From an uncultured Ruminococcus sp. (GTDB lineage: Bacteria > Bacillota > Clostridia > Oscillospirales > Acutalibacteraceae), in assembly GCA_902786345.1 (NCBI GenBank), contig CADACB010000025.1:1-34708 (forward strand): a stretch of 34,708 nucleotides of DNA. The letters are read 5' to 3'. Made by a program: the position numbers and the translations under genes. The notes beneath the pieces are model-generated. The model was given only the letters and a program-made list of their open reading frames with translations. It searched no databases and was not told the DNA's origin. This document shows, one piece after another, positions 18,299 through 34,136 of this stretch; the first letter of the stretch is position 1, and every line of letters starts with the position of its first letter.

Positions 18299-18562
18299 GG
18301 ATTAATAACAGAAATAATAATAGATTCAAGTCTATCGTAATGTGTACAAACTTTTCTAAAAGTATTATAAGTCTATACATACTGTTTTTTACTGCTTTCG
18401 TCCGGACTTGAAAACATTAATGTAAACACACTCTAATACTTGCTTAAAGTTTATTATTTCAGACTTATCGATGGAAGACACTGTGGATTATTAGGCTACA
18501 TTATTTTCACAACTGCACCTGTTTTTTTCACTGTCTTTCATAGTGGAACACTTTTTGGTATT

Positions 18563-21500
18563 TTATCTTTTTATCTCTTTCTTTTGAGATGATAACACAT
18601 ATACCGCTGTGCAGACCAGCATACAGAACAGAACTGCGGCAAATAATACTCTCATATCACTCATACCTGCTGCCGGTAATTCATAGGGTATGAACTCATA
18701 CCGATTGTTGAACACAAATACTATATCCGTATCGTCTGAATCCACCGTTTCTTCTGTATTAAGAGACAGTGCTTTATTTCTTACCGTATTGCCATCGGGT
18801 GCAGTCTGGAGCGATGCTCCTTCGTTGCTGCTGACAGTATAGGAAGCAATATATGCCGCATTCGCCTGCTCTGTTACGAAATACGTTGCGCCATAGGGCA
18901 AGCCCTTGAGTTTAAAGGATTCTCCGTGATGCAAAGTTACAGTAAAACGTGCTGTGTCGGCGATTTCATCAGCCGCTTCTCCGCTAAGGTCCATAATCTC
19001 TGCCAAACTCTTTTGTACAACACCTGTGGTGTCTTTTTCCTTAAATTCACCCTTAAGCTCACTATATTTTTTTCCGCTGCCCTGCAGCCCTGTTACTATG
19101 ATATCAAACTTAAACTCATGCCTGCTGTATTCACCTTTTTTTAGGTTTCCGTAGGTCATATCCACCATCTTTGTTACAGTAATATCACAGGATACCTTCC
19201 TGTTTGTAAATGTAACAGTCGGATTCTTGTATAACTCTATACTGTGTTCTCTTGTGGTAAGTTCTTTACCCGGAGACTCATTTTCGCCTTGAGTTATTTC
19301 TTCTTCTCCGTACTTCACAATATATGAAGCTACATAGTCTGATTCTCCTTCGATAATTTCATACTTTGTTCCCACCGGAAGTTCCGAGAATTCAACAATT
19401 CCACCTGCTGTCAGTACAAACTCTGCCGTAATAACGCCTCCATCATCTGCTGTAACTCGTCCAAGGCTGGTGGGTATTACAGCCTTTGCAGGCAATCCCT
19501 TCAGAATCACCGTAAAATCAAAGCTATCGCTGTTTCCGGATGACGCATTCTCTACTTCTTTTATAAGAGTTAACTTCTGCTTTACATTTTTAGTATTGGT
19601 AAAGACAATGGAAATCTTCTCTCCCCTGTCGGCTGTTTCAGTCTGGGTAGACAAGTCTGTATTTTCATTTGTATTACTATCTGCACTTCTAACGATCAAA
19701 TCAAGACCTGCGCTGTCGGTCATACGATAAGATGAGGTATAATTACCTGCACGTTCAGTTATACAATAAGCAGCGTTTTCTGGTATGGTTATGCTTGCCG
19801 TTTCATTAGCTTTCAGGTCAAATTCCACAAACGCCTTACGCTCGGCACTTGCTGAAAAGCTCTTACGAGTCACACCATTAACCTTAATAGCATACAAGCC
19901 ATTTGCTCTCAGCCCTGAAAAATCAACAGCAAACGAGTAGCTTTCGTTCGGGTCAATTCCGGTACCTGTTACTTCCTTTTTTATTGTGAAGGTAACATCT
20001 TCGCTCTCGTCATAATTCATTTTATTGATAAAGCTAACCAATTTTATATTGTCAGCCTCTATGGTATCTTCCGCAGCACCACCGGCAACAGTGGTAATAA
20101 AATTATCATCAGCTTCCTCTGTAACCTTATATAAATATCCGGCAGGTATATCCATAATCATCAGACTCTCGTCGTCAGCAAGAGTAAAGTCAGCCTTGCC
20201 TTCTGTGAACAATAAAATGCCGTCGCTGCCGTCAGGCTTTATTGTTTTGAGCAACAGATCGTCTGTCAAAGCAGCTCCACTGCTGTCTTTGAGAATAATA
20301 GTAAAGTGAAATCTCTTTGCCTTGTCTATACTGCTGATATATTCAGAACCGTCTTTATTCAACACATTCTTGTTAATGATCAGATTGCCGAAGGAAGGCG
20401 GGTCCTCCTTTACGGTATTTGTTATGGTACCTTGACCATCTATTACCATCAGGAAGTTCTCCTTGCCCATATTCAGAGAAGTATAGTTTTCCAGTTCGTC
20501 CTCCCATGCATAATAGTTTATATTTGGATTCAACCCTGTAAAGGTGTAGGTCCATGTATTATCATTAACCTTTTCGACAATGCAATTACTGTCCGTTGAA
20601 GAATACAACAAATCTATAGATGTTCCCTTAAAGGTCAGATAACCCGGAGTATCTTCGGTATCGATGCAAGCAAACCTCCAATTTGTATTATTACTATTGT
20701 ATGCTGTTCCGTTACCGCCTACAAGCGAAGAACACCCGGTGAACATATTGTCATCATTAACATAAGTTGACTCATATCTATTAGTCCATAAACCGGAAAC
20801 ATATATCGTTTTAAGATTGCTGCAGCCATAAAACATATGGCTCATTGCACTGCCATGTGTATCCCAGGAACTAAGGTCAAGTTCGGTCAGCGAAGAGCAA
20901 TTATTGAATAATCTGTTGAGATTTCCTTTAGTCAGTTTCCATTTTTCAATACCGTCAATTATTCTGAGAGATCTGCAGTCTGAAAACAAACTATCAACAT
21001 GCGCATAACCTGAAAAAGTCCATCCTGACACATTTACATAAACAAGTGAAGTACAGCCAATACACATGCTAAAATTATCTCCTACATTCCAATTACTCAC
21101 ATCCAATGTTATCAGGGAATTACAGCAAGAAAATAACATGTTCGCAGATGGACTTTGTGGATTCCATTTACTGAGATCGGCAGATTTTAAAGAACTACAA
21201 CTCTCAAACATTCTGCTCATGTTTGTAACACCGGAGACATCCCAGTTTTTTAATCCATCAATACTGGTCAATGATTTACAACTCGTAAACATTCCTTCCA
21301 TGTTGGTAACACCGGAGACATCCCAGTTTTTCAATCCATCAACATTTTTCAGGTAGTAGTTATGATCAAACATTCTTGCCATGTTAGATACATGAGAGGT
21401 ATCCCAATTACGTAAGGCATCAACATTTTCCAAGCGATTAGCTGTTGTATTTGTCCAGCCGTATACATACCCTGAAAACAGCTCGCCCATATCTGTAACA

Positions 21501-22102
21501 CTGGAAGTATCCCAATCTGCCAGAGCATGAATGTCAGAAAGTGACCGACAAAATCCGAACATTCCGTACATTGTGATTACATTCCTTGTATCCCAATGCT
21601 CAAGACCATTCAAATCAGTCAATGCAGAACAATAAGTAAACATATTATTCATATTTCTTACTTTCGAAATATTCCATGAACCAATAGCACTGATGTCTGT
21701 TAGCCCTTCTTGAAAAGAGAACATACCTTCCATGTTGGTTACATTAGAGGTATCCCAATCTTTGAAACAGGTCAGATCCGTAATTCCTGAACAATATGAA
21801 AACATACCTGACATATCCGTAACACCCGAAACATTCCAGTTTGAAATCGCACTAAAATCAGTCATCCCTGAACAAGAGGAAAACATATATGACATATCCG
21901 TAACACCCGAAACATTCCAGTTTGAAATCGCACTAAAATCAGTCATCCCTGAACAAGAGTAAAACATACCTGACATATTAGTGACGCTTGATATATCTAA
22001 ACGACCTATATCAAGACTTGTCAAATTGTTACAATAGGAAAACATACGTGACATATTAGTTACACTTGATGTATCTAAACCGTTCAGATCAAGACTTGTC
22101 AA
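18563..22102 (-). CDS. 3' part of giant BspA-like LRR adhesin, sortase-anchored (frame-split)
   Basis: This open frame begins in mid-repeat at a TTG, lacks a signal peptide and continues the repeat pattern of the upstream frame, so it is the C-terminal part of one adhesin. Residues 1 to about 470 are BspA/DUF285-type 26-residue repeats (MF..C..LTSLD.S..DTS.VTNMS), which become more divergent toward the end. A linker (GYLTFKGTSIDLLYSSTD) follows, then four Ig-like pilin-type domains (about 20390-18740), each opening with a strand such as LIINKNV, FTIKKEV, LTLIKEV or ITVTKMV and ending with an ETxA- or E-box-like element (YKVTEEA, YCITERA, YEIIEGE, YFVTEQA). The end is a cell-wall sorting signal, LPAAG (18665-18679), then a hydrophobic stretch and KKEIKR. 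It can be expressed only if the frame is restored. BspA-like proteins commonly bind host matrix or other bacteria. Confidence 0.85.
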   Translation of the reverse strand: MTSLDLNGLDTSSVTNMSRMFSYCNNLTSLDIGRLDISSVTNMSGMFYSCSGMTDFSAISNWNVSGVTDMSYMFSSCSGMTDFSAISNWNVSGVTDMSGMFSYCSGITDLTCFKDWDTSNVTNMEGMFSFQEGLTDISAIGSWNISKVRNMNNMFTYCSALTDLNGLEHWDTRNVITMYGMFGFCRSLSDIHALADWDTSSVTDMGELFSGYVYGWTNTTANRLENVDALRNWDTSHVSNMARMFDHNYYLKNVDGLKNWDVSGVTNMEGMFTSCKSLTSIDGLKNWDVSGVTNMSRMFESCSSLKSADLSKWNPQSPSANMLFSCCNSLITLDVSNWNVGDNFSMCIGCTSLVYVNVSGWTFSGYAHVDSLFSDCRSLRIIDGIEKWKLTKGNLNRLFNNCSSLTELDLSSWDTHGSAMSHMFYGCSNLKTIYVSGLWTNRYESTYVNDDNMFTGCSSLVGGNGTAYNSNNTNWRFACIDTEDTPGYLTFKGTSIDLLYSSTDSNCIVEKVNDNTWTYTFTGLNPNINYYAWEDELENYTSLNMGKENFLMVIDGQGTITNTVKEDPPSFGNLIINKNVLNKDGSEYISSIDKAKRFHFTIILKDSSGAALTDDLLLKTIKPDGSDGILLFTEGKADFTLADDESLMIMDIPAGYLYKVTEEADDNFITTVAGGAAEDTIEADNIKLVSFINKMNYDESEDVTFTIKKEVTGTGIDPNESYSFAVDFSGLRANGLYAIKVNGVTRKSFSASAERKAFVEFDLKANETASITIPENAAYCITERAGNYTSSYRMTDSAGLDLIVRSADSNTNENTDLSTQTETADRGEKISIVFTNTKNVKQKLTLIKEVENASSGNSDSFDFTVILKGLPAKAVIPTSLGRVTADDGGVITAEFVLTAGGIVEFSELPVGTKYEIIEGESDYVASYIVKYGEEEITQGENESPGKELTTREHSIELYKNPTVTFTNRKVSCDITVTKMVDMTYGNLKKGEYSRHEFKFDIIVTGLQGSGKKYSELKGEFKEKDTTGVVQKSLAEIMDLSGEAADEIADTARFTVTLHHGESFKLKGLPYGATYFVTEQANAAYIASYTVSSNEGASLQTAPDGNTVRNKALSLNTEETVDSDDTDIVFVFNNRYEFIPYELPAAGMSDMRVLFAAVLFCMLVCTAVYVLSSQKKEIKR

Positions 22103-22400
22103 ACTATTCAGTTACGTTGGATGTATCTAAACCGTTCAGATCAAGGCTTGTCAATCCGCTGCAATTTTCGAACATACCTGACATATTAGTTACACTTGAT
22201 GTATCTAAACCGTTCAGATCAAGACTTGTCAAATTTTTACAAGAGGAAAACATACCTGACATATTAGTTACACTTGATGTATCTAAACCGTTCAGATCAA
22301 GACTTGTCAATCCGCGGCAGCTTGAAAACATATTTGACATATCTGTAACCTTTGAGGTGTTGATACCTGATGTATCAATTTCAATACATCGGGATAAATT
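20690..22400 (-). repeat. second LRR repeat array (contains the frameshift)
   Basis: The array follows the second YWWSDA cap module. The first units (22400-21960) are nearly identical (LTSLDLNGLDTSSVTNMS). Later units are diverse, with Trp-containing SNWNVSGVTDMS and KNWDTSNVTNME forms. The frame break at about 22104 falls among the identical units. Confidence 0.82.
22100..22108 (-). other. frameshift junction inside the LRR array
   Basis: Normal units read ...VT, NMSGMFSSC, then a variable pair and LTSLD. Here VT is followed directly by one extra base and then N-S-LTSLD in another frame. Nine codons minus one base are missing, a net loss of 26 nt. Adding 26 to 18563-28886 gives a multiple of three. 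Confidence 0.8.
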
Positions 22401-25400
22401 CCACCATAATCGGTGAGATTTATCTGTTAAATATACGTTGGATGCATCTGACCACCAATAGACTGTGCCGTAATCTTCTGCAGATGACTGATCGACATAC
22501 CACGCATATATTTTATAATCGGTAGTCTTATCATCAAGCCTTACGGCTGTACCGTTATTGATGACATTCTGAACCGTATCATTATCTCCGGTAAACGGCT
22601 TGAAGGCTTTAATTTTATAATTGTCTGTTACTAAACAAAGAGCCGAATTATCGCCATTTCCCACAAAATATGCATCTTCTTCAGTGTGTATTGGTTGTTC
22701 CTGATCTGTCTTTTGTCTTAAATAACCGGGAGTAGATCCGGTGTAAATCCGGGCATATGTTTTATCCGTATAACTCCAGGAATAAGCAGTAGCTTTTCCA
22801 TCATTATTAAGACTGGTACAATTGTAGAACATTTCATAAGAATTTGAGACTTTATTTGTATTCCACCCGGAGGAAACAAAGATATTTACCAGATATCGAC
22901 AATTATAGAACATTCGTCTCATATTTGTCGCTTTCGAGGTTTCAAAATTACTAAGATCCAAACTTGTAAGTCTAACACATTGTTCAAACATAGATGACAT
23001 ATCCGTTACACTCGATGTATCAAAACCACTGACATCAAGGTTTGTTAATCCGCTGCAGCTTGAAAACATATTTGACATATTCGTTACGTTTGATGTATTA
23101 AAACCAGTAACATCAAGGCTTGTCAATCCGCTGCAGTATGAAAACATACCTGACATACTCGTTACGTTTGATGTATCAAAACCACTGACATCAAGGCTTG
23201 TCAAATTCAAACAGAAGAAGAACATGTTTGACATATTCGTTGCTTTTGATGTATTAAAACCTGTAACATCAAGGCTTGTCAATCCGCTGCAGTATGAAAA
23301 CATACCTGACATACTCGTTACGTTTGTTGTATCAAAGCCGCTGACATCAAGGCTTGTCAATCCTTGGCAACCTGCAAACATACCAGACATATCCGTTACG
23401 TTTGTTGTATCAAAGCCACTGACATCAAGGCTTTTCAATCCGCTGCAGCTTGAAAACATATCTGACATATTAGTTACACTTGATGTATCTAAACCGTTCA
23501 GATCAAGGCTTGTCAATCCGCTGCAGTTTGAAAACATACCTGACATATTTGTTACGTTTGTTGTATCAAAGCCGCTGACATCAAGGCTTGTCTGTCCTTG
23601 GCATTGATAAAACATACGGGACATATTCGTTACGTTTGTTGTATCAAAGCCGCTGACATCAAGGCTTGTCAATCCGCTGCAGCTTGAAAACATACCTGAC
23701 ATATTCGTTACGTTTGTTGTATCAAAGTCGCTGACATCAAGGCTTGTCAATCCGCTGCAGCCTGAAAACATATTTGACATATTCGTTACGTTTGTTGTAT
23801 CAAAGCCGCTGACATCAAGGCTTGTCAGTCTGTTGCATCTTGAAAACATATATGACATATCCGTTACGTTTGATGTATCAAAACCACTTACATCAAGGCT
23901 TGTCAGTCTGTTGCAGCCTGAAAACATATATGACATATCCGTTACGTTTGCTGTATCAAACGCGCTGACATTAAGGCTTGTCAATCCGCCGCATCCTGCA
24001 AACATACCTGACATATTTGTTACGTTTGTTGTATCAAAGCCGCTGACATCAAGGCTTGTCAATCCGCATCCTGCAAACATATTTGACATATTCGTTACGC
24101 TTGATGTATCAAAATCGCTGACATCAAGATCTGTTAATTGATAACAGTCAGAAAACATATATGACGTATTTGTAAGTTGAGAAGTTCCGGAACAACTAAT
24201 ATTAACTTCACTCAAAACTCTACATCCAAAGAACATATAGGACATATCCGTAACTCTTGAGAGATCCAAATTTTCAAGAAAACTAATATTCTTCAGGTTG
24301 CTGCAGTTATGGAACATATAGGACATATCCAGGTTGCTGCAGTTATGGAACATATAGGACATATCAGTTACCAAAGAAAAATCTATTCCCGATAAGTCAA
24401 TAGTAGTAATGCTGCTGATATCGGAAAAAATGCGATGAGATGCATTGGTCAGATAAACAATATTTGCATCGGACCACCAATAAACTGTACCATAATCCGG
24501 AGCAGAACTATCGCTGACATACCATGCATAAATACTGCATTTTGTTGAACCGTCGTCTATTTTTGCGGCATTACCGCTCCTTATCATGGATTTAACATAA
24601 TCTGCATCACCATCGTAATGTGCAAAACCTCTCAGGTTATAAGAAGGCGCAAGTTCAGTCAGAACGGAATCTGTGCCGTTTCCATAAAAATATGCAACAG
24701 GAGCTGTACTATCAACTCCGAGATGAATAACCGGCTCAGCTTCTCTTGTTTGATTTGTTTCATTGTCAACCCATTTTTTTGTAATTGTAACACTGCTGTT
24801 TTCCTTGTTTTTAATAACAAAACAACCTGAGTCATTCTTGTATGAACCGGTTATAGTGATATTATCATCTTCGGAAATGGTGACAATATATTTTTCGGTG
24901 TTCAGAACATACCCCTCTGGTGCTTCAACCTCGTATAAAACATATCTGCCTGCTTCAAGGTGATCGAAGGTTGCCTGACCGTTAATTCCGGTGGTCTTGT
25001 CCATATTGACTTCAGTACCCAAATAGGAACTGCCTGACAGGTTAAACTTTGCTCCGGCTACAGGCAAAACAATTCCGCCTATTTCAATATAGCCTTCCTT
25101 CTGAATGGTAAAGTGATGATACGGTTCATTATAAACGGTATAGGTGCCATCAAGTTCTCTGTGTGCTCCCTCAATCTCATAATTGCCGTTTTCATCGATC
25201 CTGACCACATACTCGTTGTCATTAAGAATATAATCCTGAGTGGTAGAAACCTCTTTCAAAGTGTATCGTCCCATCTCAACATCTTCAAAGGACACAATAC
25301 CTTTTTCATTTGAATAAGCATATTTATTAATATTGTTGCCATAGGTTGAGGTACCATACAAGTGAAACTGTACACCCTCAATGCGTCTATTCTTGTTTTT

Positions 25401-28400
25401 AAGATTCCTTTTGTTAAAAGAAACATCCACATGCACTCTTGGCTTGTCATAAATCTTATAGCGTACACCTTTTTCAAGTACAGTGCCATCCACTGCAACT
25501 GTACCATCGGACCTGACTGTTACAGAAAAAGTATCGTTTATCTTCAGGTAATCAACCGAGCCATTATATTCGATCAGCTCATAAGTTCCCTTTTCAATAT
25601 CTTTGAATGTCAACTCACCATTGACATCCGACTCCAGAATACTGTCTATCTCAGTTCCATACGCTGATACGCCACTCAGACGGAATGAGATACCTTCAAC
25701 CGGTCTGGAATGATCGCTGTCATCCAGTTTCAGGATTGGAATATCTCCCATAACTTTCAATCCGACACTGTCATAATTCCATGTGATAAACCTGTCATCA
25801 GAGAAGGTTTGGGAGTAGATACTCATAAGTCGGGCTGAAATCGAAACATCATTATATGCAAACGCTATTTTTTCTTCCTCGGGCAACGTAATATCAGGCT
25901 CGGAAGACGGTGCCGTCATATGAAGCATCACTGTTACGGATTTGTTGCTTTCAAGAACAAAGTCTTTACCATTCTTATCTTTAGACAGATCTACCGCTAC
26001 AGCCCGGGCCATTGAAATATCTCCGAAATCCTCCATTTTTTTCCATGTAGCAGTGTCAGTCAAATCGAATACACCGTCATTTATATCCACAGTATGATTC
26101 GACAAATAGACAACCGGATCTGCCCCTATTGCTCTTAGCTGTGACACGTCAACGCGTTTAAGCATTCCCTGCCATCTGCTGTATATATTCTCATCTGGAT
26201 TAGAAAATGTTTCCAGATTATCAAACAACACCATGTTCTTAGAGCGAGTCACAAAGTCTGTCTGGTATCGGATACGATAGGTATAGTCCTGAGACAAGCG
26301 TACAGCAGTTGAACGTTGATATGTGCCGTCAGTGTCAGACTTTACCTTTTTGGTCAGACCAGCACTGACCACCAACAGGATATTAATAGTCCTGCTGTGT
26401 TCAGCATACAAGAATTTTTTAGCGTCTGTTTTACTGTCAAGTTCGGACAGGAGCGTACTTTCGGTGATATTTCCACCGTTATCGGGATACCCGTTGGTAA
26501 TATTGTCATTGCCGGTTTCATAAGCAACAGAATTTCGGACCAATGCACCATAATCGTAAATACTCTCCCAAGTATGCAGAGAAGAATAAGTCATCGTATA
26601 ACCACGTTCACTGCGCTTTTTTATCTTAACAACCAGCAAGGTTCTTCCGGTATCATTGTAATTTGTAATCGTCGAAACATCTATTTCAGATGGTTTCAGA
26701 TACCCTGAGTCCGACTTAACCTCCACTGTAGAAAGATCCGGTTCGGCTCCTGCAGGAACAAGATCATAGAATACACCTGATTCCTGCGGTACATATACAA
26801 CACCCTCCTGTGTCATATAATTCTCATATACATCCACTTGCCAACCAAGTGTAACAATATGCTTTACCTTATCGTTATGTGTATATGTGCATTTTTTTCT
26901 GATTTCTGATTCCTTTTCATAACCTATAATATAGTTTCTGGCAAATTCTGTTTTATTCAGAAGAACACTCTCCTGTAAATCCGCATCAGCATTGTCCGAC
27001 TTGGTGATCCTGACATTTGCAATGTTCGTCAGCCATGCCTTTCTTTCGCCTGAGGAAAAAACCTCCTCCACCAGTCTGTCTATTCTTTCGGAATGCTTGA
27101 TTTTACAAAAGGGATATGCCTCCAGATTCGTATAATAATAAGAATTTGACGTAACAATCTTATATCCGACACACTGAGCATTGTCCGTAAATATAATGCC
27201 CGTACTTGTCACAGATGTTACCTTGTTGTTCAGACTCTCACCGACACCGGTTTTCAGATAATACCGGCCTGCCTCGCGCCATTCTGTATCTTTCCCGAAT
27301 TTTGCATAAAAATATACAATATCATCATCACTATAATCCGGTGCAGCGGTAACAAATCGCAGTTGTTCTGTATCCCATCTCGCGCCAGTGATTCTTAACT
27401 GATAATCAACTTTGGTGATTTCATAGTCATGAAAATCAAGCTGTTCCGTTCCCTCCGGCACATTATATTCCGTTTCTTTCGTTTCATAATTATGTGAGGC
27501 GGTAACGGTGTCCGCAAAGAAAAATACATCATCCGTTATAGTATAGGTCAATTTATTCACACCGTAATGGTCAACATCCGTTTTACCATAACCGTCTTCA
27601 ATAGTCCATGGGTAGGAATATGCCTGCATCATCAGTTTATAAACCATTTTTTCATGTATATCAGGAATATTGTTTTCCCTGAACTCCCCTAACTGATAAT
27701 TCATTACATTGGAATTATATTTATCGTAATTATAATAGTAGGAATAGTTATTATATTTCCAAAAGTTAAATGAACCAATCGGATAATCAGGCTTAGGCTC
27801 AGAATATGTATATACTGCAGAAGATACAATGGAAGAATCCGCATCTATATTATCAATAGGATGAAGAACCACATTAATTTTGTTTCGAATTTGATATGTT
27901 ATGTAAGGATTGTATGTTTCCTTCAGATGTTTAGTAATAACATAGGAATACATATTATGTCCGGAAGATCGTATAGGATTGCTTGTCATTTCTGTAGAAT
28001 AACCGACATTGCCATACATTTTCGCACCTACAAGCGAAGCGTCACCATAGTCTCCCGTTACTGTATCATTAAAAGTCAACACAAATGGCTGCGTCGCATT
28101 CGATACAGATGTCACAAGCCATAAAAGATAGTAATAATCATCACTATTGGTAATATCGAAATAGGCAGGATCACCCCAATCATCCTGCCAACTATCGAAA
28201 AACTGAGAAAAAGTCTTGGTTGCTTTTGTCAGAGTGGCAGTTGTATTAATCTTCACTTGCGGTATCTGAGCAGTCGTATAAAGGCGCTCGTCCGCACTTT
28301 TGTTAATATTCAATTCCACCGGAACACTCAGCGACAAAATCATATCTTCATATTCAAAGATAGATTTGCTGGTAGAATAGCCAAACTGTATAGAACCCTT

Positions 28401-28886
28401 TTCCGCAGCAGAAAGCGTCATACGGTTATAAATAATAATACTGTCTTCCTGCTCCATAAAAACAAACTGATTTTCAGTATCACTCTCAGATACTTGGTCT
28501 GCCTCTGGTATTGCCACTTCCCAATTATCCGCTATTTCTCCGTTCCTGTCCTTCAGAATATGCTTAGGAAGAGTAATTCTCACTGTTCCGGGAACCAGCT
28601 CGCCTTCACCGGAGAAAGTATAATCCAGCTGATACTTAAACTGATGTCCCTCATCAGTAGATCCTGGTGTCCAGACGAAATCAGGCTGGGCCAGCGTCCC
28701 GTTATTGTCGGCTCCGGATACTAAAAAGACGCCAAAATTCTCTATCTTCTGGGAAGTTGTTTCCGTAACAACAGCTTGCTCCGCATAGGTCCGAAAAGAC
28801 AATGCCGGCACAAAACCCGTCAATACAATCATAGCCGTTATAAGAATTGCCAACGCCTTAGAAAAGAATTTTTTTGTTTCTATCAT
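22104..28886 (-). CDS. 5' part of giant BspA-like LRR adhesin (frame-split)
   Basis: The 2260-residue product starts at the ATG at 28886, with GGAG ten bases upstream; a GTG three codons earlier lies too close to that site. Residues 1-35 are a signal peptide (ALAILITAMIVLTGFVPAL, then a TYA-EQ cleavage site). A large N-terminal region of about 1000 residues has no motif I recognise and is probably an adhesive head. Three SpaA/Cna-B type domains follow (about 25740-24800, with YELIEYNG, YTLKEVS and YVLYEVEAPEGYVLN), then a short Cna-B-like KKWVDNE strand. A 95-residue cap module (IYAWYV...DYGTVYWWSDA) leads into the first LRR array (about 24400-22870, some twenty 78-bp repeats). A second cap module (about 22680-22400) leads into the second array. 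The frame ends with VTE-stop at 22104 in the middle of a repeat. Restoring about 26 missing bases would join it to the 3' frame, giving roughly 3449 residues. Confidence 0.88.
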   Translation of the reverse strand: MIETKKFFSKALAILITAMIVLTGFVPALSFRTYAEQAVVTETTSQKIENFGVFLVSGADNNGTLAQPDFVWTPGSTDEGHQFKYQLDYTFSGEGELVPGTVRITLPKHILKDRNGEIADNWEVAIPEADQVSESDTENQFVFMEQEDSIIIYNRMTLSAAEKGSIQFGYSTSKSIFEYEDMILSLSVPVELNINKSADERLYTTAQIPQVKINTTATLTKATKTFSQFFDSWQDDWGDPAYFDITNSDDYYYLLWLVTSVSNATQPFVLTFNDTVTGDYGDASLVGAKMYGNVGYSTEMTSNPIRSSGHNMYSYVITKHLKETYNPYITYQIRNKINVVLHPIDNIDADSSIVSSAVYTYSEPKPDYPIGSFNFWKYNNYSYYYNYDKYNSNVMNYQLGEFRENNIPDIHEKMVYKLMMQAYSYPWTIEDGYGKTDVDHYGVNKLTYTITDDVFFFADTVTASHNYETKETEYNVPEGTEQLDFHDYEITKVDYQLRITGARWDTEQLRFVTAAPDYSDDDIVYFYAKFGKDTEWREAGRYYLKTGVGESLNNKVTSVTSTGIIFTDNAQCVGYKIVTSNSYYYTNLEAYPFCKIKHSERIDRLVEEVFSSGERKAWLTNIANVRITKSDNADADLQESVLLNKTEFARNYIIGYEKESEIRKKCTYTHNDKVKHIVTLGWQVDVYENYMTQEGVVYVPQESGVFYDLVPAGAEPDLSTVEVKSDSGYLKPSEIDVSTITNYNDTGRTLLVVKIKKRSERGYTMTYSSLHTWESIYDYGALVRNSVAYETGNDNITNGYPDNGGNITESTLLSELDSKTDAKKFLYAEHSRTINILLVVSAGLTKKVKSDTDGTYQRSTAVRLSQDYTYRIRYQTDFVTRSKNMVLFDNLETFSNPDENIYSRWQGMLKRVDVSQLRAIGADPVVYLSNHTVDINDGVFDLTDTATWKKMEDFGDISMARAVAVDLSKDKNGKDFVLESNKSVTVMLHMTAPSSEPDITLPEEEKIAFAYNDVSISARLMSIYSQTFSDDRFITWNYDSVGLKVMGDIPILKLDDSDHSRPVEGISFRLSGVSAYGTEIDSILESDVNGELTFKDIEKGTYELIEYNGSVDYLKINDTFSVTVRSDGTVAVDGTVLEKGVRYKIYDKPRVHVDVSFNKRNLKNKNRRIEGVQFHLYGTSTYGNNINKYAYSNEKGIVSFEDVEMGRYTLKEVSTTQDYILNDNEYVVRIDENGNYEIEGAHRELDGTYTVYNEPYHHFTIQKEGYIEIGGIVLPVAGAKFNLSGSSYLGTEVNMDKTTGINGQATFDHLEAGRYVLYEVEAPEGYVLNTEKYIVTISEDDNITITGSYKNDSGCFVIKNKENSSVTITKKWVDNETNQTREAEPVIHLGVDSTAPVAYFYGNGTDSVLTELAPSYNLRGFAHYDGDADYVKSMIRSGNAAKIDDGSTKCSIYAWYVSDSSAPDYGTVYWWSDANIVYLTNASHRIFSDISSITTIDLSGIDFSLVTDMSYMFHNCSNLDMSYMFHNCSNLKNISFLENLDLSRVTDMSYMFFGCRVLSEVNISCSGTSQLTNTSYMFSDCYQLTDLDVSDFDTSSVTNMSNMFAGCGLTSLDVSGFDTTNVTNMSGMFAGCGGLTSLNVSAFDTANVTDMSYMFSGCNRLTSLDVSGFDTSNVTDMSYMFSRCNRLTSLDVSGFDTTNVTNMSNMFSGCSGLTSLDVSDFDTTNVTNMSGMFSSCSGLTSLDVSGFDTTNVTNMSRMFYQCQGQTSLDVSGFDTTNVTNMSGMFSNCSGLTSLDLNGLDTSSVTNMSDMFSSCSGLKSLDVSGFDTTNVTDMSGMFAGCQGLTSLDVSGFDTTNVTSMSGMFSYCSGLTSLDVTGFNTSKATNMSNMFFFCLNLTSLDVSGFDTSNVTSMSGMFSYCSGLTSLDVTGFNTSNVTNMSNMFSSCSGLTNLDVSGFDTSSVTDMSSMFEQCVRLTSLDLSNFETSKATNMRRMFYNCRYLVNIFVSSGWNTNKVSNSYEMFYNCTSLNNDGKATAYSWSYTDKTYARIYTGSTPGYLRQKTDQEQPIHTEEDAYFVGNGDNSALCLVTDNYKIKAFKPFTGDNDTVQNVINNGTAVRLDDKTTDYKIYAWYVDQSSAEDYGTVYWWSDASNVYLTDKSHRLWWNLSRCIEIDTSGINTSKVTDMSNMFSSCRGLTSLDLNGLDTSSVTNMSGMFSSCKNLTSLDLNGLDTSSVTNMSGMFENCSGLTSLDLNGLDTSNVTE
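22870..24400 (-). repeat. first 78-bp (26-residue) LRR repeat array
   Basis: About twenty in-frame units of 78 bp encode DVSGFDTTNVTNMSGMF-like repeats (the Listeria/Mycoplasma/BspA DUF285 type). Many units are nearly identical at DNA level in the TCAAGGCTTGTCAATCCGC segment, which favours unequal recombination. Confidence 0.88.
24294..24365 (-). repeat. exact 36-bp tandem duplication in the first LRR unit
   Basis: Bases 24294-24329 and 24330-24365 are identical. The copy adds 12 codons, giving NCSNLDMSYMFHNCSNL instead of a regular 26-residue unit, and keeps the frame. Zero divergence suggests a recent event or an assembly artefact. Confidence 0.92.
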
Positions 28887-28978
28887 ATTATTCACACTCC
28901 GATCATCACAGCAAACAATTATCTCATTAATATTAAGGGAAAGCTATTAGCAAATATATAATTAACTCTATTATGTAA

Positions 28979-29016
28979 TATTATTATACGAAGTTTAATA
29001 TTTTCGTATAATAATA
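28979..29016. promoter_or_regulatory. 14-bp-arm palindrome centred on adhesin -10 box
   Basis: Perfect arms TATTATTATACGAA (28979-28992) and TTCGTATAATAATA (29003-29016) flank a 10-base centre. The centre contains the predicted -10 box of the adhesin promoter. This is the geometry of a repressor operator; an AT-rich RNA hairpin ending the pilin transcript is the alternative. Confidence 0.5.
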
Positions 29017-29023
29017 AAATCAA
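28995..29023 (-). promoter_or_regulatory. predicted promoter of the giant adhesin gene
   Basis: The minus strand reads TTGATT (29023-29018), 17 bases, TATTAA (29000-28995). The leader to the ATG at 28886 is about 100 bases. AT-rich surroundings make other choices possible. Confidence 0.45.
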
Positions 29024-29115
29024 GTAATATTGACGATTTCAATCCCTTTATGTTTCGCTGAGCTTTCATAAGCAGGTTTATAATAATGAGAACGATCATT
29101 ATAACATATCTCACA

Positions 29116-29262
29116 TCACACCTCTACCAAAGTAACAATCTTATACTCAGGTAAAACGAATATATTGTCATCTACTTCAAAACCCTGTTCATATAAAGCA
29201 AATTGTGCCTTGGCTCGTTTATTGTTCGCATCTTTAAGCATAATGTAATCAGCTGAAATCAT
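29116..29262 (-). CDS. small hypothetical protein (48 aa)
   Basis: The ORF begins MISADYIMLKDANNKRAKAQ and ends PEYKIVTLVEV. Its residue composition looks protein-like, with mixed helix- and strand-forming parts and no low-complexity run. The ribosome-binding site is weak (AAAGAAA), and I know no family for it. It lies on the same strand as the pilus genes, between the accessory pilin and the adhesin. It may be a real small gene or the remnant of one. Confidence 0.35.
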   Translation of the reverse strand: MISADYIMLKDANNKRAKAQFALYEQGFEVDDNIFVLPEYKIVTLVEV

Positions 29263-29695
29263 AATTTTTCTTTATTTGTATCATTGCCTTCTAAACAGCG
29301 ACAATTTTTATTTTATTCTTTACTCCTAATCAATTGTAATTGTTACAATTCCTAAATGAAGGTCATTGTCTATAAAAATATTTTTCCTTATAATATTCCT
29401 ATATTCTAAGAACAGTTCTATCTCCGGCAAAGCTTTTATCAGATCACGAACAACAAATCCACACCATACAACACTGATACCGTTTTACATAAGTATCAAG
29501 AGCCTCAGTTTACAAGAATTGAATTTAAAAAATAATATTAATAATCAATCTTTAAAAGCCCTTTCCGATTACTTTTCATTGGTGCGTAAACCTGATTGTC
29601 ATCCTAATTTTTAAAGAATTTGGTTTTTTCAGAACCGCTTAAAGTTATAAAAAGATTAGTACTGCCACTTAGAAGAATAAATTTTTCCGTTCATC

Positions 29696-30484
29696 TTAAT
29701 CATTCTTTTCACGACTCTTTCGCTTAACTACTGTTACCAGTGCCAATATCAATGAAAAGAGCCATATTCTTATAATGACAAACCACACACTGTTTTCGCC
29801 CGTTATTATTTTTCTGTCATCAGATGATTCATACGGTTCGGAGGGTTCGGAAGATTCAAAAAAATGTGATAATTCCGAAGGCTCTGAAGATTCAGAAGGT
29901 TCAGAAATTTGTTTTTTCTTTACTATAGTTTTGGGTTCAGAGAGTACATCGTTTTTCCATTTGCAGACGGTTTCTGTTGCATCAGCAAACGGAACCGATA
30001 TAATATACGGATCAAAGAACTCGTATTTTTCTGCATCTCCGTGTGCGTCAAGTTCTTCAACAAGATACATACCCGGTTTCAGTCCGCTAAACACGCTTTT
30101 TCCATGATAATCCGTGATTGTAACGAGGCTGTGCTCTTTTATCATCGAAGAAAGCGTTTTTGCTGCTTTTATGGATTTTTCCACATCCATTCCCGTAAAA
30201 TCTATGTCCGCATCCTTATAAGTATCAAGCAAAGTATATTCTGCTGATTTGTTCCTGACTTCAAGTCCGGCTACCCTCGTGATACCAATAGAAGCACCTT
30301 CTATCGCAATATCAACGCCATTATTCTGAACGTAAAAATAAACAGTAAGACTTTTGGGCAATTCATCAAGATCAGGAACCTGATTTCCTTTTTCTGCAGC
30401 AGCATCAGATGGCAATAAGATAGTGATTATTATTGAAGTTACTACGCTGAGAATACTCAATATAACAGATTTAAGTCGTTTCAT
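29696..30484 (-). CDS. accessory SpaA-type pilin with Ser-Glu-Pro stalk
   Basis: The 262-residue product has a signal peptide (VILSILSVVTSIIITILLPSDAAA) and one SpaA/Cna-B-like domain containing FSGLKPGMYLVEELDAHGD, the E-box-like element. A Ser/Glu/Pro repeat segment follows (SEPSE-type words, about residues 195-225), then a C-terminal membrane segment and KRKSREKND. The expected LPxTG is degenerate: KIITG occurs before the hydrophobic part. The start at 30484 is chosen because AAAGGTGG lies upstream; the GTG nine bases earlier is inside that site. It overlaps the sortase gene by 14 bases, so the two are translated together. By analogy it is a minor or basal pilin that could link the fibre to the wall or membrane. 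Confidence 0.82.
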   Translation of the reverse strand: MKRLKSVILSILSVVTSIIITILLPSDAAAEKGNQVPDLDELPKSLTVYFYVQNNGVDIAIEGASIGITRVAGLEVRNKSAEYTLLDTYKDADIDFTGMDVEKSIKAAKTLSSMIKEHSLVTITDYHGKSVFSGLKPGMYLVEELDAHGDAEKYEFFDPYIISVPFADATETVCKWKNDVLSEPKTIVKKKQISEPSESSEPSELSHFFESSEPSEPYESSDDRKIITGENSVWFVIIRIWLFSLILALVTVVKRKSREKND

Positions 30485-31364
30485 TTTTACCACCTTTCAA
30501 ATGCCTTTTTCTGTATATTTTCTTTCGGATTATTGATACTAATGCAAATATTATTATAAACAATAAAAATCCAGCCAGAACCCATATAGCCGGGTCTATA
30601 CGAATCTGGTGATGTTCAGTTGTAACAAGACCATCCTTTACGTCTTTCTGGCTAAATTCTATACGTGTTCCTGTTACAAGCAGTCTATGCGTATTGACTC
30701 CGTATGGAGTACACGTCACCAGTGTAACAAGATCCTTTCCTTCCTCTATCATCAGAGAACCAACATCATATGGACTTATTGTCTGTATGTTGCACACCCG
30801 ATATGCAAGTACAGTTCCGAGAACATGGATATAGAACTTGTCGCCTATTTCCATCTTGTCAAGATCAGAAAAAAATTTCTGATTCGGAAGTCCCCGGTGT
30901 CCGGTCAAAACGGAATGCGTATTGATTCCTCCTGTAGGAAGTGATGAACCGTGAATATGACCGACTCCTTTTCCGAGAGAAATATCGGTAGAATAATGAT
31001 ATACCGGTTCGGTAATATCTATTTTGGGAATCTCTACATATCCTATCATTCCGTTTTTCTTCAGACTGAGAAGGGTTTCATAATAATCGTCAGGTTCATA
31101 CTCGGCATCTGTTACGATATTTCTGTTCTGAGACCTGAGATAGTCATTATAATCTTTTGCTCTTTTTAGTATATCAGCTTTATCATCTTCCGATGTGTTT
31201 TCAATAGTACGGTTGTATTCAGTAATAAGCTTCATATCACGGTAACGATTCCACCTGTCGCTAATAACAGGATATAACAAAACCGCAGTACATAAAAGGA
31301 ATCCTATTACTGAAACAACCGATATGATCTTTCGCACAATTTCTTTATTTTTTTTCTTTGCCAT
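30471..31364 (-). CDS. class C (pilin-polymerising) sortase
   Basis: It joins pilin subunits through their LPxTG signals and a pilin lysine. The 297-residue product has an N-terminal membrane helix (about 11-32) and the class C region GMIGYVEIPKIDITEPVYH. The catalytic triad is predicted as His156 in VLTGHRGLP, Cys218 in TLVTCTPYG and Arg227 in THRLLV. A C-terminal membrane helix (about 258-283) and a basic tail follow, the layout of class C enzymes. It sits directly between the major pilin (upstream) and the accessory pilin (overlapping), so its substrates are very likely those proteins and perhaps the giant adhesin. Confidence 0.94.
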   Translation of the reverse strand: MAKKKNKEIVRKIISVVSVIGFLLCTAVLLYPVISDRWNRYRDMKLITEYNRTIENTSEDDKADILKRAKDYNDYLRSQNRNIVTDAEYEPDDYYETLLSLKKNGMIGYVEIPKIDITEPVYHYSTDISLGKGVGHIHGSSLPTGGINTHSVLTGHRGLPNQKFFSDLDKMEIGDKFYIHVLGTVLAYRVCNIQTISPYDVGSLMIEEGKDLVTLVTCTPYGVNTHRLLVTGTRIEFSQKDVKDGLVTTEHHQIRIDPAIWVLAGFLLFIIIFALVSIIRKKIYRKRHLKGGKNETT

Positions 31365-31456
31365 TACAAAATCCTGATTTTAAAGTATTATTCTGACAAA
31401 TCAGCTTATATAACACGCTGATCACTTTAATCTTTTATGCTCATTTTTGCTGCATT

Positions 31457-33466
31457 TCAGTCATTTTTATTTTTTTCTGTTCTTTTTTTTCTTAATGTAA
31501 AAAGAAACAGCGTCAGGAAGAATACCATACCTGTTGCAGCAATTATTGTTATTACTATAATACCCGCACCGCCTGTTGACGGAAGAGCTGCAAGTTCTGT
31601 ATCTACTACCTCTGCCGGAACTGCATTAAGGGTTACAACATTTGTTACAACATCATGATTTGTCTGTTCTCCTACAGTAACAGTGGGAACTGCTGTAAAT
31701 AACGAATCACCGACAACATCTGTATAATTGCCATCTGTACCCTTCACCTTTGTAGTCACTCTATAACTTAAAAGTGTGCCTTCTTCTGCAGTTGTTCCGT
31801 CCGAGATAGTTCCTATAATTGTTACCTGATATTCGTTTGCATTAAGGGTGTATCCGTCAGGGGCAGCTGTTTCCTTGAGATAGTACACTCCTACATCAAG
31901 GCCCTTGAATACGATATGACCGTTTTCGGTTGTGATATATACCGCATTGGTTGATTCCCACTCACCTGTACGGGGATTTCTACTCCACATCTTATGCGGA
32001 ACTGTAAACGCTGCATCATCATAAAGGGTAAACTCTGCTCCATCAAGAGCATGGGAGCTGGAGTATTCCTTCTTTGTCGAATCGTAAGTATAATTCGCGC
32101 CTTGCTCAAGAGCCTCTGTTACCTTGTTTATTTCAAATGCATCAAACGGATCAATTTCATCACCATCATTGCCGACTTTGACCTTCGATCCGCCACCATC
32201 GATCTTTGAACCGAGAGCAAATGTATAATGATATGTGCTGTCTCTAAGTACAGCAACTCCTGTGTTGTCGCTGGGATCAACAGTATAGCTAAGAGTTGCA
32301 GTTGTTTTGTTAGCCTCATAGTTAAGCTTCGCAGCTTCTGTAAGCACGGAATCGTATGTTACCACAACGCCCTTTTCAGCATTTGCACGAATCCAAGCGT
32401 CAGAAAATGTGATAGTATATGAAACTGCTGTTTTTCCGATATTCTCATCTGTAACTTTTGTTCCGTCTTTATCCATATATACTACGGTATAGTTTGTAAC
32501 GGTTTTATCATCGGAAGTATCTTCGGGAGTACCTTTATTATCAATATATGTTGGATCAACAACAGTCTTTGTATCACCGACAACCATCTTTACTGTCAGG
32601 TTGTTTATTCCCGCAAATGAATTTACATCAAGCTTATCATCAATCCTATATATAACACCTCCCACACCCTGTTCGTTCGGCTTTGCATATTCGTCGGTAT
32701 ATGTAGGAACAGTCATACTGTCAAGTTGGAAATAAACAAGATCACCTATTGCTACGATATCACCCTCTGAGTCTTCAGGGTCTTTAAATGTATGCGTATT
32801 TGATCTGACGATATCCTTGTTAAATGACGTTATGCTTGATTTAAGATACGCATTTCGGGGAAAATTCCAGTAAGCAGACAGGTCAACTTCTGAACCTACA
32901 GCAGTATCAGCAATATTGTTTGCATCAGTTACATTAACAGCAACTACTGCCGGGTTATAAACATATGCTGTCTGACTTGTAGCAAGTACAATATATAATC
33001 CTGCTTCAACATTAGCTGTATATTCATTCAAGGTCGCAGGCGCAGTGCCTCTGGTCATCTTTATGCCCTTTAATTTTGTTGTATCGGCACGGACAGCGTC
33101 AGCAATTTTTGTAATCTCTGCTACTGTAGGTTTTTCCAAATCTTTAATATCTGCATTTTCAGGGTCACAGAGAACATAACCTGTAAGCTTGCTGTCTTTA
33201 TAAACACCTTTAGCGAGTTGATACGCAGTGACTTTCAGATTATCTGATGCGTCTTTTACATTTGTGACTTTGATTTGTTTGACAGTACCAATAGCTGAAT
33301 TTGCCCCATCCGCATCAGAGCCGACCCAAGTTCCGTTTATTATTACATCATTCTGTGCAAAAACAGGCATAATTGTAAAGCTTGCAGTTGCGGCAAACGC
33401 AAGAACGGCGGTTAAGATTTTTTTTATTTTACTTTTCATACTCATTACGGATGCATATAGGAGCAT
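31457..33466 (-). CDS. major LPxTG pilin (isopeptide-forming fimbrial subunit)
   Basis: The 669-residue product starts MLLYASVMSMKSKIKKI, then a hydrophobic signal core and a cleavage site near VFAQ. An N-terminal domain with ANVEAGLYIVLATSQTAYVYNP precedes the fimbrial isopeptide region (SFNKDIV lysine motif, then TYIDNKGTPEDTSDD and YTVVYMDKDG). The last Ig-like domain has GVYYLKETAAPDGYTL, the E-box whose Glu catalyses an internal isopeptide bond. The sorting signal LPSTG (31571-31585) is followed by a membrane segment and KKRTEKNKND. GGGAGG four bases before 33466 supports that start, although MKSKIK nine codons in would give a shorter signal peptide. It is the first gene of the pilus operon. 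Confidence 0.92.
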   Translation of the reverse strand: MLLYASVMSMKSKIKKILTAVLAFAATASFTIMPVFAQNDVIINGTWVGSDADGANSAIGTVKQIKVTNVKDASDNLKVTAYQLAKGVYKDSKLTGYVLCDPENADIKDLEKPTVAEITKIADAVRADTTKLKGIKMTRGTAPATLNEYTANVEAGLYIVLATSQTAYVYNPAVVAVNVTDANNIADTAVGSEVDLSAYWNFPRNAYLKSSITSFNKDIVRSNTHTFKDPEDSEGDIVAIGDLVYFQLDSMTVPTYTDEYAKPNEQGVGGVIYRIDDKLDVNSFAGINNLTVKMVVGDTKTVVDPTYIDNKGTPEDTSDDKTVTNYTVVYMDKDGTKVTDENIGKTAVSYTITFSDAWIRANAEKGVVVTYDSVLTEAAKLNYEANKTTATLSYTVDPSDNTGVAVLRDSTYHYTFALGSKIDGGGSKVKVGNDGDEIDPFDAFEINKVTEALEQGANYTYDSTKKEYSSSHALDGAEFTLYDDAAFTVPHKMWSRNPRTGEWESTNAVYITTENGHIVFKGLDVGVYYLKETAAPDGYTLNANEYQVTIIGTISDGTTAEEGTLLSYRVTTKVKGTDGNYTDVVGDSLFTAVPTVTVGEQTNHDVVTNVVTLNAVPAEVVDTELAALPSTGGAGIIVITIIAATGMVFFLTLFLFTLRKKRTEKNKND

Positions 33467-33694
33467 CCTACCTCCCTCCAGTTAATTTTTTTGACCACTC
33501 AGTCTGGATTTTTACGCGTTCATCCTGAGCATTTGCTTCAGAAAGAACTCTGTGTAAGCGCTGATTTTCACCTTCTTCCCAAAAAGAATCATAATTTGCA
33601 GAAAACAATAAGATAATGCTTCACATATCTTAATGAAAAATACAATTCATTTTACAGTTGTTACTAATAAATTTAAAAAGAAATACACATTTAA

Positions 33695-33723
33695 ATATTA
33701 ACATATTATTTTCAAAAAGTCAA
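33695..33723 (-). promoter_or_regulatory. sigma-A promoter of the pilus operon
   Basis: The minus strand reads TTGACT (33723-33718), 17 bases, TAATAT (33700-33695). The transcription start would be near 33688, leaving a leader of about 220 bases before the pilin gene. Confidence 0.7.
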
Positions 33724-33793
33724 TTGTATTAATGAATTATGTATACTGTTTATTGAATTAGCGAAGCGTATAAAAACTTAATAGCAACACATT

Positions 33794-33836
33794 AGAGAAC
33801 CAATCCTAAAAAATTAGGGTTGGTTCTCTTTTTTTT
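33794..33836 (+). terminator. strong intrinsic terminator without an obvious upstream plus-strand gene
   Basis: AGAGAACCAATCCTAA (33794-33809) pairs with TTAGGGTTGGTTCTCT (33814-33829) with one G-T wobble, followed by a T-run. No plus-strand gene ends nearby. It either ends an antisense or small RNA, isolates the repA module from upstream transcription, or marks an element edge. Confidence 0.8.
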
Positions 33837-33899
33837 CAAAAATAATCAAGTCGAACAAACAGGCAAATGATTGAAATTTATTTTTAGTAGTGGTGCTTA

Positions 33900-34136
33900 A
33901 TGAACAAAAAACAGGCATATTTTTATCTGCCGCCCGAACTTTTCACAGACAAATACAAAGATTTTCCAAATGAATCAAAAATGCTTTTTGGAATGTTGCT
34001 TACTAATATGGAAACAGCCAAGGGCGTTATGGAAACTGCACGATTGATTAATGAAATCGGTTCCAGAAGTATAAGCTCAATGCATAAGATTGTCGAGTCT
34101 GAAATCCAAAAGACTTTGGAAAGTGAGGGCTTGTAA
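33900..34136 (+). CDS. small composite ORF with RepA_N-like N-terminal segment
   Basis: The 78-residue product begins MNKKQAYFYLPPELFTDKYK and FPNESKMLFGMLLTN. This resembles the start of RepA_N initiators (FYxxPKxLFTDxxYKxLSxxAKLLYGLLLxR). The second half (VMETARLINEIGS, then an acidic helix) is not initiator-like. The ribosome-binding site is weak (AGTGGTG). Its stop overlaps the next ATG as TAATG, so it is coupled to the initiator. It may be a rearranged copy of the initiator N-terminus fused to another small gene, or a genuine small partner protein. Confidence 0.55.
   Translation: MNKKQAYFYLPPELFTDKYKDFPNESKMLFGMLLTNMETAKGVMETARLINEIGSRSISSMHKIVESEIQKTLESEGL

Follow-up and report, generated by a model that had tools for sequence, protein, structure and literature searches.

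A giant pilus-operon adhesin gene is split by a 26-nt shortfall in one coding repeat in a draft genome of an uncultured Ruminococcus

In Bifidobacterium breve UCC2003, the pilus clusters bbr_0113 and bbr_1889 are described as carrying a signal peptide and an LPXTG signal on two frames joined by a G-tract slippage switch; the tract belongs to the operon's first gene, and the anchored subunit is produced only in cells whose frame has shifted back (PMC9187656). Phase variation has been proposed for two PARCEL genes that carry a poly-G tract (PMC2996958). Pilus adhesin genes of the Streptococcus bovis group are reported to be often mutated, and the same paper describes S. gallolyticus Pil1 as phase-variable (PMC5902542). 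In pneumococci, tandem duplications that arise spontaneously switch capsule genes (Waite 2001, 2003, as cited in PMC4022640). We analyzed a stretch of 34,708 nucleotides (nt) from an uncultured Ruminococcus sp. (the window), which is the whole of contig CADACB010000025.1 (C25) of a 2.35 Mb draft genome in 75 contigs. It holds a giant adhesin gene, split over two adjacent frames, that is the last gene of a sortase-pilus operon. No paper on this particular gene was recognized in title-level searches.

The giant gene resembles the B. breve pilus clusters in that the secretion signal and the sorting signal lie in two adjacent frames of a sortase-pilus subunit gene. Unlike the arrangement described there, it stands last in its operon, where no slippage tract was detected, and its frame is lost through 26 nt missing from a repeat unit. 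With the PARCEL/DUF285 surface proteins of PMC2996958 it shares the TIGR02167 and PF03382 families and tandem coding units; the feature on the window side is that units of 26-27 amino acids (aa) occur in an LPxxG-anchored protein of a pilus operon. As described for the pneumococcal capsule genes, the frame is lost by a length change within coding sequence that does not match the unit, and exact tandem duplications are found in three relatives (L029, L033 and L052). The window lesion differs in being a loss, so it would not revert by precise excision. One domain of the 3' half weakly matches streptococcal sortase-pilus ancillary proteins (NF033396; PDB 2xi9, 4bug), and a class C sortase operon is common to both, but the score is 65.7 of 600 bits, far under the cut-off, and the window protein greatly exceeds them in size and consists largely of PARCEL-based architecture.

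The gene and its break comprise the following features (bp, base pairs):

22104..28895, minus strand: 5' part of the giant adhesin gene, 2263 aa
18563..22102, minus strand: 3' part of the giant adhesin gene, 1179 aa, open throughout
22986..24128, minus strand: first PARCEL array, in frame, with 14.7 copies of a 78-bp unit
21786..22342, minus strand: second PARCEL array, 78- and 81-bp units, bearing the break
22103..22130, minus strand: the break, a repeat unit short of 26 of its 78 nt, with an immediate stop in the upstream frame
24294..24365, minus strand: perfect tandem duplication of 36 bp, in frame

The 5' frame begins with a hydrophobic signal-like segment (read by eye, with no signal-peptide predictor run) and lacks an anchor. 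It contains three stretches of SpaA, the first DUF285/PARCEL array and the start of the second; its large N-terminal region gave no Pfam match and no PDB match at E 0.01. The 3' frame lacks a signal peptide and contains the rest of the second DUF285 array, four stretches of DUF7601, DUF5979 and an LPAAG sorting signal followed by a hydrophobic stretch and a basic tail. Secretion signal and anchor are thus placed as the initial annotation had described them, and in the window they do not share one product. Its label of a BspA-like protein is formally supported, as PF13306 (BspA-type LRR_5) exceeds its cut-off of 27.7 bits in both frames (85.4 bits in the 5' frame, 34.5 in the 3' frame). The scores of the two frames are stronger for TIGR02167 (647.7 and 248.8 bits, cut-off 30) and for PF03382 (DUF285; 434.5 and 277.7 bits, cut-off 25), which makes PARCEL/DUF285 the better label: the giant protein is a PARCEL/DUF285 repeat surface protein with tandem units of 26-27 aa. 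One unit of the first array (23468-23546) resembles the second-array type, being identical at 73 of 78 bases to the unit at 22340 (22263-22340), as if copied between arrays.

The two frames are halves of one gene, as had been proposed, because six relatives from the same genus hold the equivalent as a single continuous frame matching both halves (L030, 3721 aa; L036, 3379; L032, 3089; L064, 2847; L034, 2792; L035, 2784). In each of the six, a hydrophobic N-terminal segment and an LPx[AS]G end stand in that one frame.

On the coding strand, the repeat anchors are spaced by 78, 78 and then 130 nt (2 x 78 - 26), the last interval running between 22184 and 22054. The frame is lost at about 22104-22111, where the preceding unit runs directly into a 52-nt remnant and meets a stop at once. 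The anchor interval and the frame loss bear out a 26-nt loss inside the 78-bp repeats, and the break is a real feature of the assembled sequence. What is encoded is, as anticipated, an unanchored fragment of secreted type: a 2263-aa frame with the signal-like segment and no sorting signal. The units had also been called nearly identical. This is true of their exact common tracts (54, 55 and 62 nt), but as wholes the four units around the break are pairwise identical at just 54-66 of 78 bases. By reading, the flanks of the junction overlap by 2 nt at most. A whole-unit collapse would delete entire units, so a junction whose flanks lack a long overlap is unlike the collapse of identical units. 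No second lesion was seen in either half (~3440 codons), and a 3' half open over 1179 codons with its sorting signal is what a recent single lesion would be expected to leave. A programmed frameshift was considered and rejected: the open frames overlap by a few codons (22107-22111), with no slippery motif recognized there. The exact junction pattern had no match in viral_contigs, which is weak evidence on frame states.

The proposal that the repeats act as an on/off switch did not hold. Both unit lengths, 78 and 81 nt, are divisible by 3 (a 78-nt unit holds 26 codons), and slippage by units, gain or loss of units and in-register recombination are therefore all frame-neutral. Among 25 pairs of exact tracts of at least 30 nt in the adhesin gene, 22 avoid the junction, and all 22 lie at distances divisible by 3; the other three (55, 54 and 45 nt) straddle the junction, all at a distance of 1 mod 3. 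Exchange inside an intact array therefore does not switch the gene off, and recombination spanning the break could act only towards the open frame. A scan of the operon (18400-34136) gave no slippage tract above thresholds of 9 for A/T runs, 7 for G/C runs, five copies for di- and trinucleotides and three copies for 4-7-mers. Slippage-type phase variation, which calls for a repeat unit that is not a multiple of 3 or a short tract, was accordingly rejected; duplication-type phase variation is not matched either, since the window lesion is a loss rather than an exact tandem duplication. Anchor spacings of up to 260 nt (a range outside which the break of L031 falls) were off-frame in 4 of 385 cases over 24 giant genes. 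Two of these are breaks (the window and L056). We read the other two (L030 and L052) as chance out-of-frame matches, for L030 because that gene is one open frame. The repeat mechanism fails in the off direction, and there is no repeat-driven switch.

What the break would mean for the cell depends on the operon, whose other genes in the window are:

31457..33466, minus strand: backbone-pilin-like protein with a SpaA domain and an LPSTG anchor
30471..31364, minus strand: class C (pilus) sortase, 254.5 bits against an NCBIfam cut-off of 160
29696..30493, minus strand: small accessory pilin-like protein with a C-terminal hydrophobic segment; match to NF033902 weak, below cut-off

The backbone-pilin-like protein falls below the cut-off of the pilin family model (51.4 against 95 bits). 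An operon with a class C sortase and a backbone pilin bearing an LPXTG-type signal points to the giant protein as a tip or accessory subunit of a sortase-assembled pilus, and since its gene closes this operon of LPSTG pilin, class C sortase and accessory pilin, it is probably the tip adhesin.

We tentatively favor, while placing its chance somewhat below one half, an unprogrammed loss that leaves a pilus without a tip together with a secreted fragment. An out-of-register event would have removed 26 nt inside one 78-nt unit of the pilus-tip adhesin gene. Translation would stop at once and yield a 2263-aa fragment, presumably secreted, without the DUF7601 stalk and without LPAAG; with backbone pilin, sortase and accessory pilin intact, a tip-less pilus would be expected. 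The array itself would not toggle the frame, and only recombination between the exact tracts flanking the break could act on it, in the opening direction. A real loss is supported by the arrays of two relatives, L031 and L056, which have shed 40 and 7 nt, respectively, lengths that do not correspond to the unit. The perfect 36-bp duplication, the second non-unit length change within the adhesin gene, shows this gene to be subject to such changes. With a genuine break, the locus would be a natural commensal pilus that has lost its tip and kept its shaft genes, and would illustrate why coding repeats of 26 codons form no frame switch.

Nearly equally likely is an error of assembly or consensus, in which the gene is continuous in cells and the 26 nt were lost when short reads were assembled through the array. 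Several observations weigh against a real loss. The genome is a 75-contig draft, and the presence of the junction in living cells is inferred from its assembled sequence. This genome (G000), although rated 100% complete, gave no match to rpoB (TIGR02013) or rpoC (TIGR02386). A second gene in it is broken at repeats: a zinc-ribbon protein with 39-bp repeats of EQARIAQ type (L108, G000:C2, 10394-11831, plus strand) breaks off after 100 aa where its array finishes, at a spacing of 34 instead of 39 that changes the frame. That gene occurs in 48 of 64 genomes, with 45 of 47 relatives matched in frames of at least 290 aa; a break in so widely conserved a gene favors assembly error, or else real array instability in this strain.

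Housekeeping genes of relatives show similar small changes. The essential gene valS, which adjoins in the window, is split into two frames in 2 of 11 drafts from the same genus, G018 and G013, through N-free internal losses of roughly 31 nt (L131, G018:C25) and 60 nt (L132, G013:C272). The same two genomes are the source of the broken adhesins L029 and L040. Splits of valS limit the breaks in relatives as biological evidence, and on this control we dropped the use of those breaks as proof of a genus-wide switch. rpoB was matched in 58 of 64 genomes and is split in at least two of the 58. In G060 (G060:C156:13379-16827) it occupies three frames, in abutting pieces with two frame changes, and in G005 it is split at a locus with 173 Ns. 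The G060 case shifted the balance slightly from an unprogrammed loss to assembly error, and the valS, rpoB and zinc-ribbon splits all fit such error.

Other observations speak for the assembly. The remaining genes of the pilus operon are single open frames. rpoC is unsplit in all 8 matching genomes among 11 searched. Over 540 kb of the own genome, the array lies wholly inside one long frame in 10 of 12 array-bearing genes and two are broken; the 12 were hand-picked (unit of at least 27 bp, at least 2.4 copies, frame of at least 290 aa) and their array edges were not individually checked. Should the break prove an artifact, it would serve as a caution that drafts of this genus contain small changes, non-unit ones in repeats and others even in the essential genes valS and rpoB, that can mimic phase variation.

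Phase variation proper, with open and broken forms of a contingency locus coexisting in the population, we consider unlikely. Precedents exist in the slippage-switched pilus subunits of B. breve and in Pil1, and in Ca. Mycoplasma girerdii variation of BspA-like genes at dinucleotide tracts is reported (PMC5476646). Breaks are also common among relatives: 7 of 24 giant genes are broken, with 9 lesions in total. The 24 were hand-picked; 12 hold both end regions on one contig (the window, L029-L032, L034-L037, L052, L056 and L064; 5 of the 12 broken) and the rest are cut by contig ends. No LPxxG end was seen in L037, L052 or L056. Left out of the count were, among others, short fragments or relics in G013 (C58, C68, C82, C205), G028 (C80, C99, C133, C191, C209) and G008 (C83, C159), and matches in G004, G014 and G035. 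One of these relics, L075 (G028:C133, 4438-5317, plus strand), has an N-terminal piece joined directly to a stop-ridden DUF285 array. The lesions beside that of the window are:

L029: exact tandem duplication of 16 nt, downstream of the repeats
L031: array shortened by 40 nt, with a 10-nt match common to both flanks
L033: in-frame stop; in addition, an exact duplication of 28 nt upstream of the repeats
L040: N-terminal region with a small frame change
L052: stop created by an exact duplication of 21 nt
L056: array shortened by 7 nt, with a second frame change at its end

In four genes (the window, L029, L031 and L052) a single lesion interrupts an otherwise open gene, and the exact duplications of L029, L033 and L052 are of a revertible kind. 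Set against this are the frame-neutral units and the lack of a slippage tract in the operon, as well as the valS and rpoB splits. Moreover, 3 to 4 of the 9 lesions lie in arrays (and 5 outside them), which by their repeat ranges make up very roughly a third of the giant genes, so no concentration of breaks in the repeats is seen. Nor are the giant genes a duplication hot spot, an idea we rejected: exact tandem duplications number 5 in 184 kb of giant genes and 33 in 942 kb of other DNA, with none in 82.5 kb of other DUF285 genes. Among 24 other DUF285 proteins, two look frame-broken (L069, L070) and three are cut by Ns (L078, L079, L083); given these, we do not claim a significant excess of breaks in the giant genes.

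A different view is that the giant tip-adhesin genes of this genus are large-target contingency genes whose in-frame arrays serve as a frame-restoring buffer and not as an off switch. A short duplication or a small out-of-register loss anywhere in the 8-13 kb would then suffice to turn the gene off, and the arrays would bias recovery, as the frame survives exchange within an intact array, whereas exchange straddling an array break removes the break. We regard this as improbable. Least probable is an old pseudogene in a decaying locus, for although multiply damaged relatives exist (the stop and duplication of L033, the two frame changes of L056, the relic array with stops of L075) and pilus adhesin genes are reported to decay in the S. 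bovis group (PMC5902542), a single lesion is seen here in about 3440 codons and the 3' half is open, with its domains and sorting signal.

Among the sorting signals seen, those of the giant proteins follow LPx[AS]G (LPAAG, LPESG, LPDSG, LPNAG, LPDAG), and those of the neighboring pilins are LPSTG or LPATG; the differing motifs possibly reflect different sortase use.

A perfect 14-nt palindrome with a 10-nt spacer lies at 28979-29016, 84-121 nt upstream of the start of the giant gene, and is a possible operator or hairpin. An invertible promoter in this region was rejected: the inverted repeats within 28850-29760 are short, and the sole perfect pair (14 nt) is this single palindrome. One palindrome half with its flank occurs at one genomic place at up to 3 mismatches. 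Folding of 28850-29760 is only moderately above that of shuffled sequences (z -1.83). The roughly 800 nt between the accessory pilin and giant genes (28896-29695) contain no credible gene; in L029, L030, L035, L036 and L038 the corresponding two open frames overlap.
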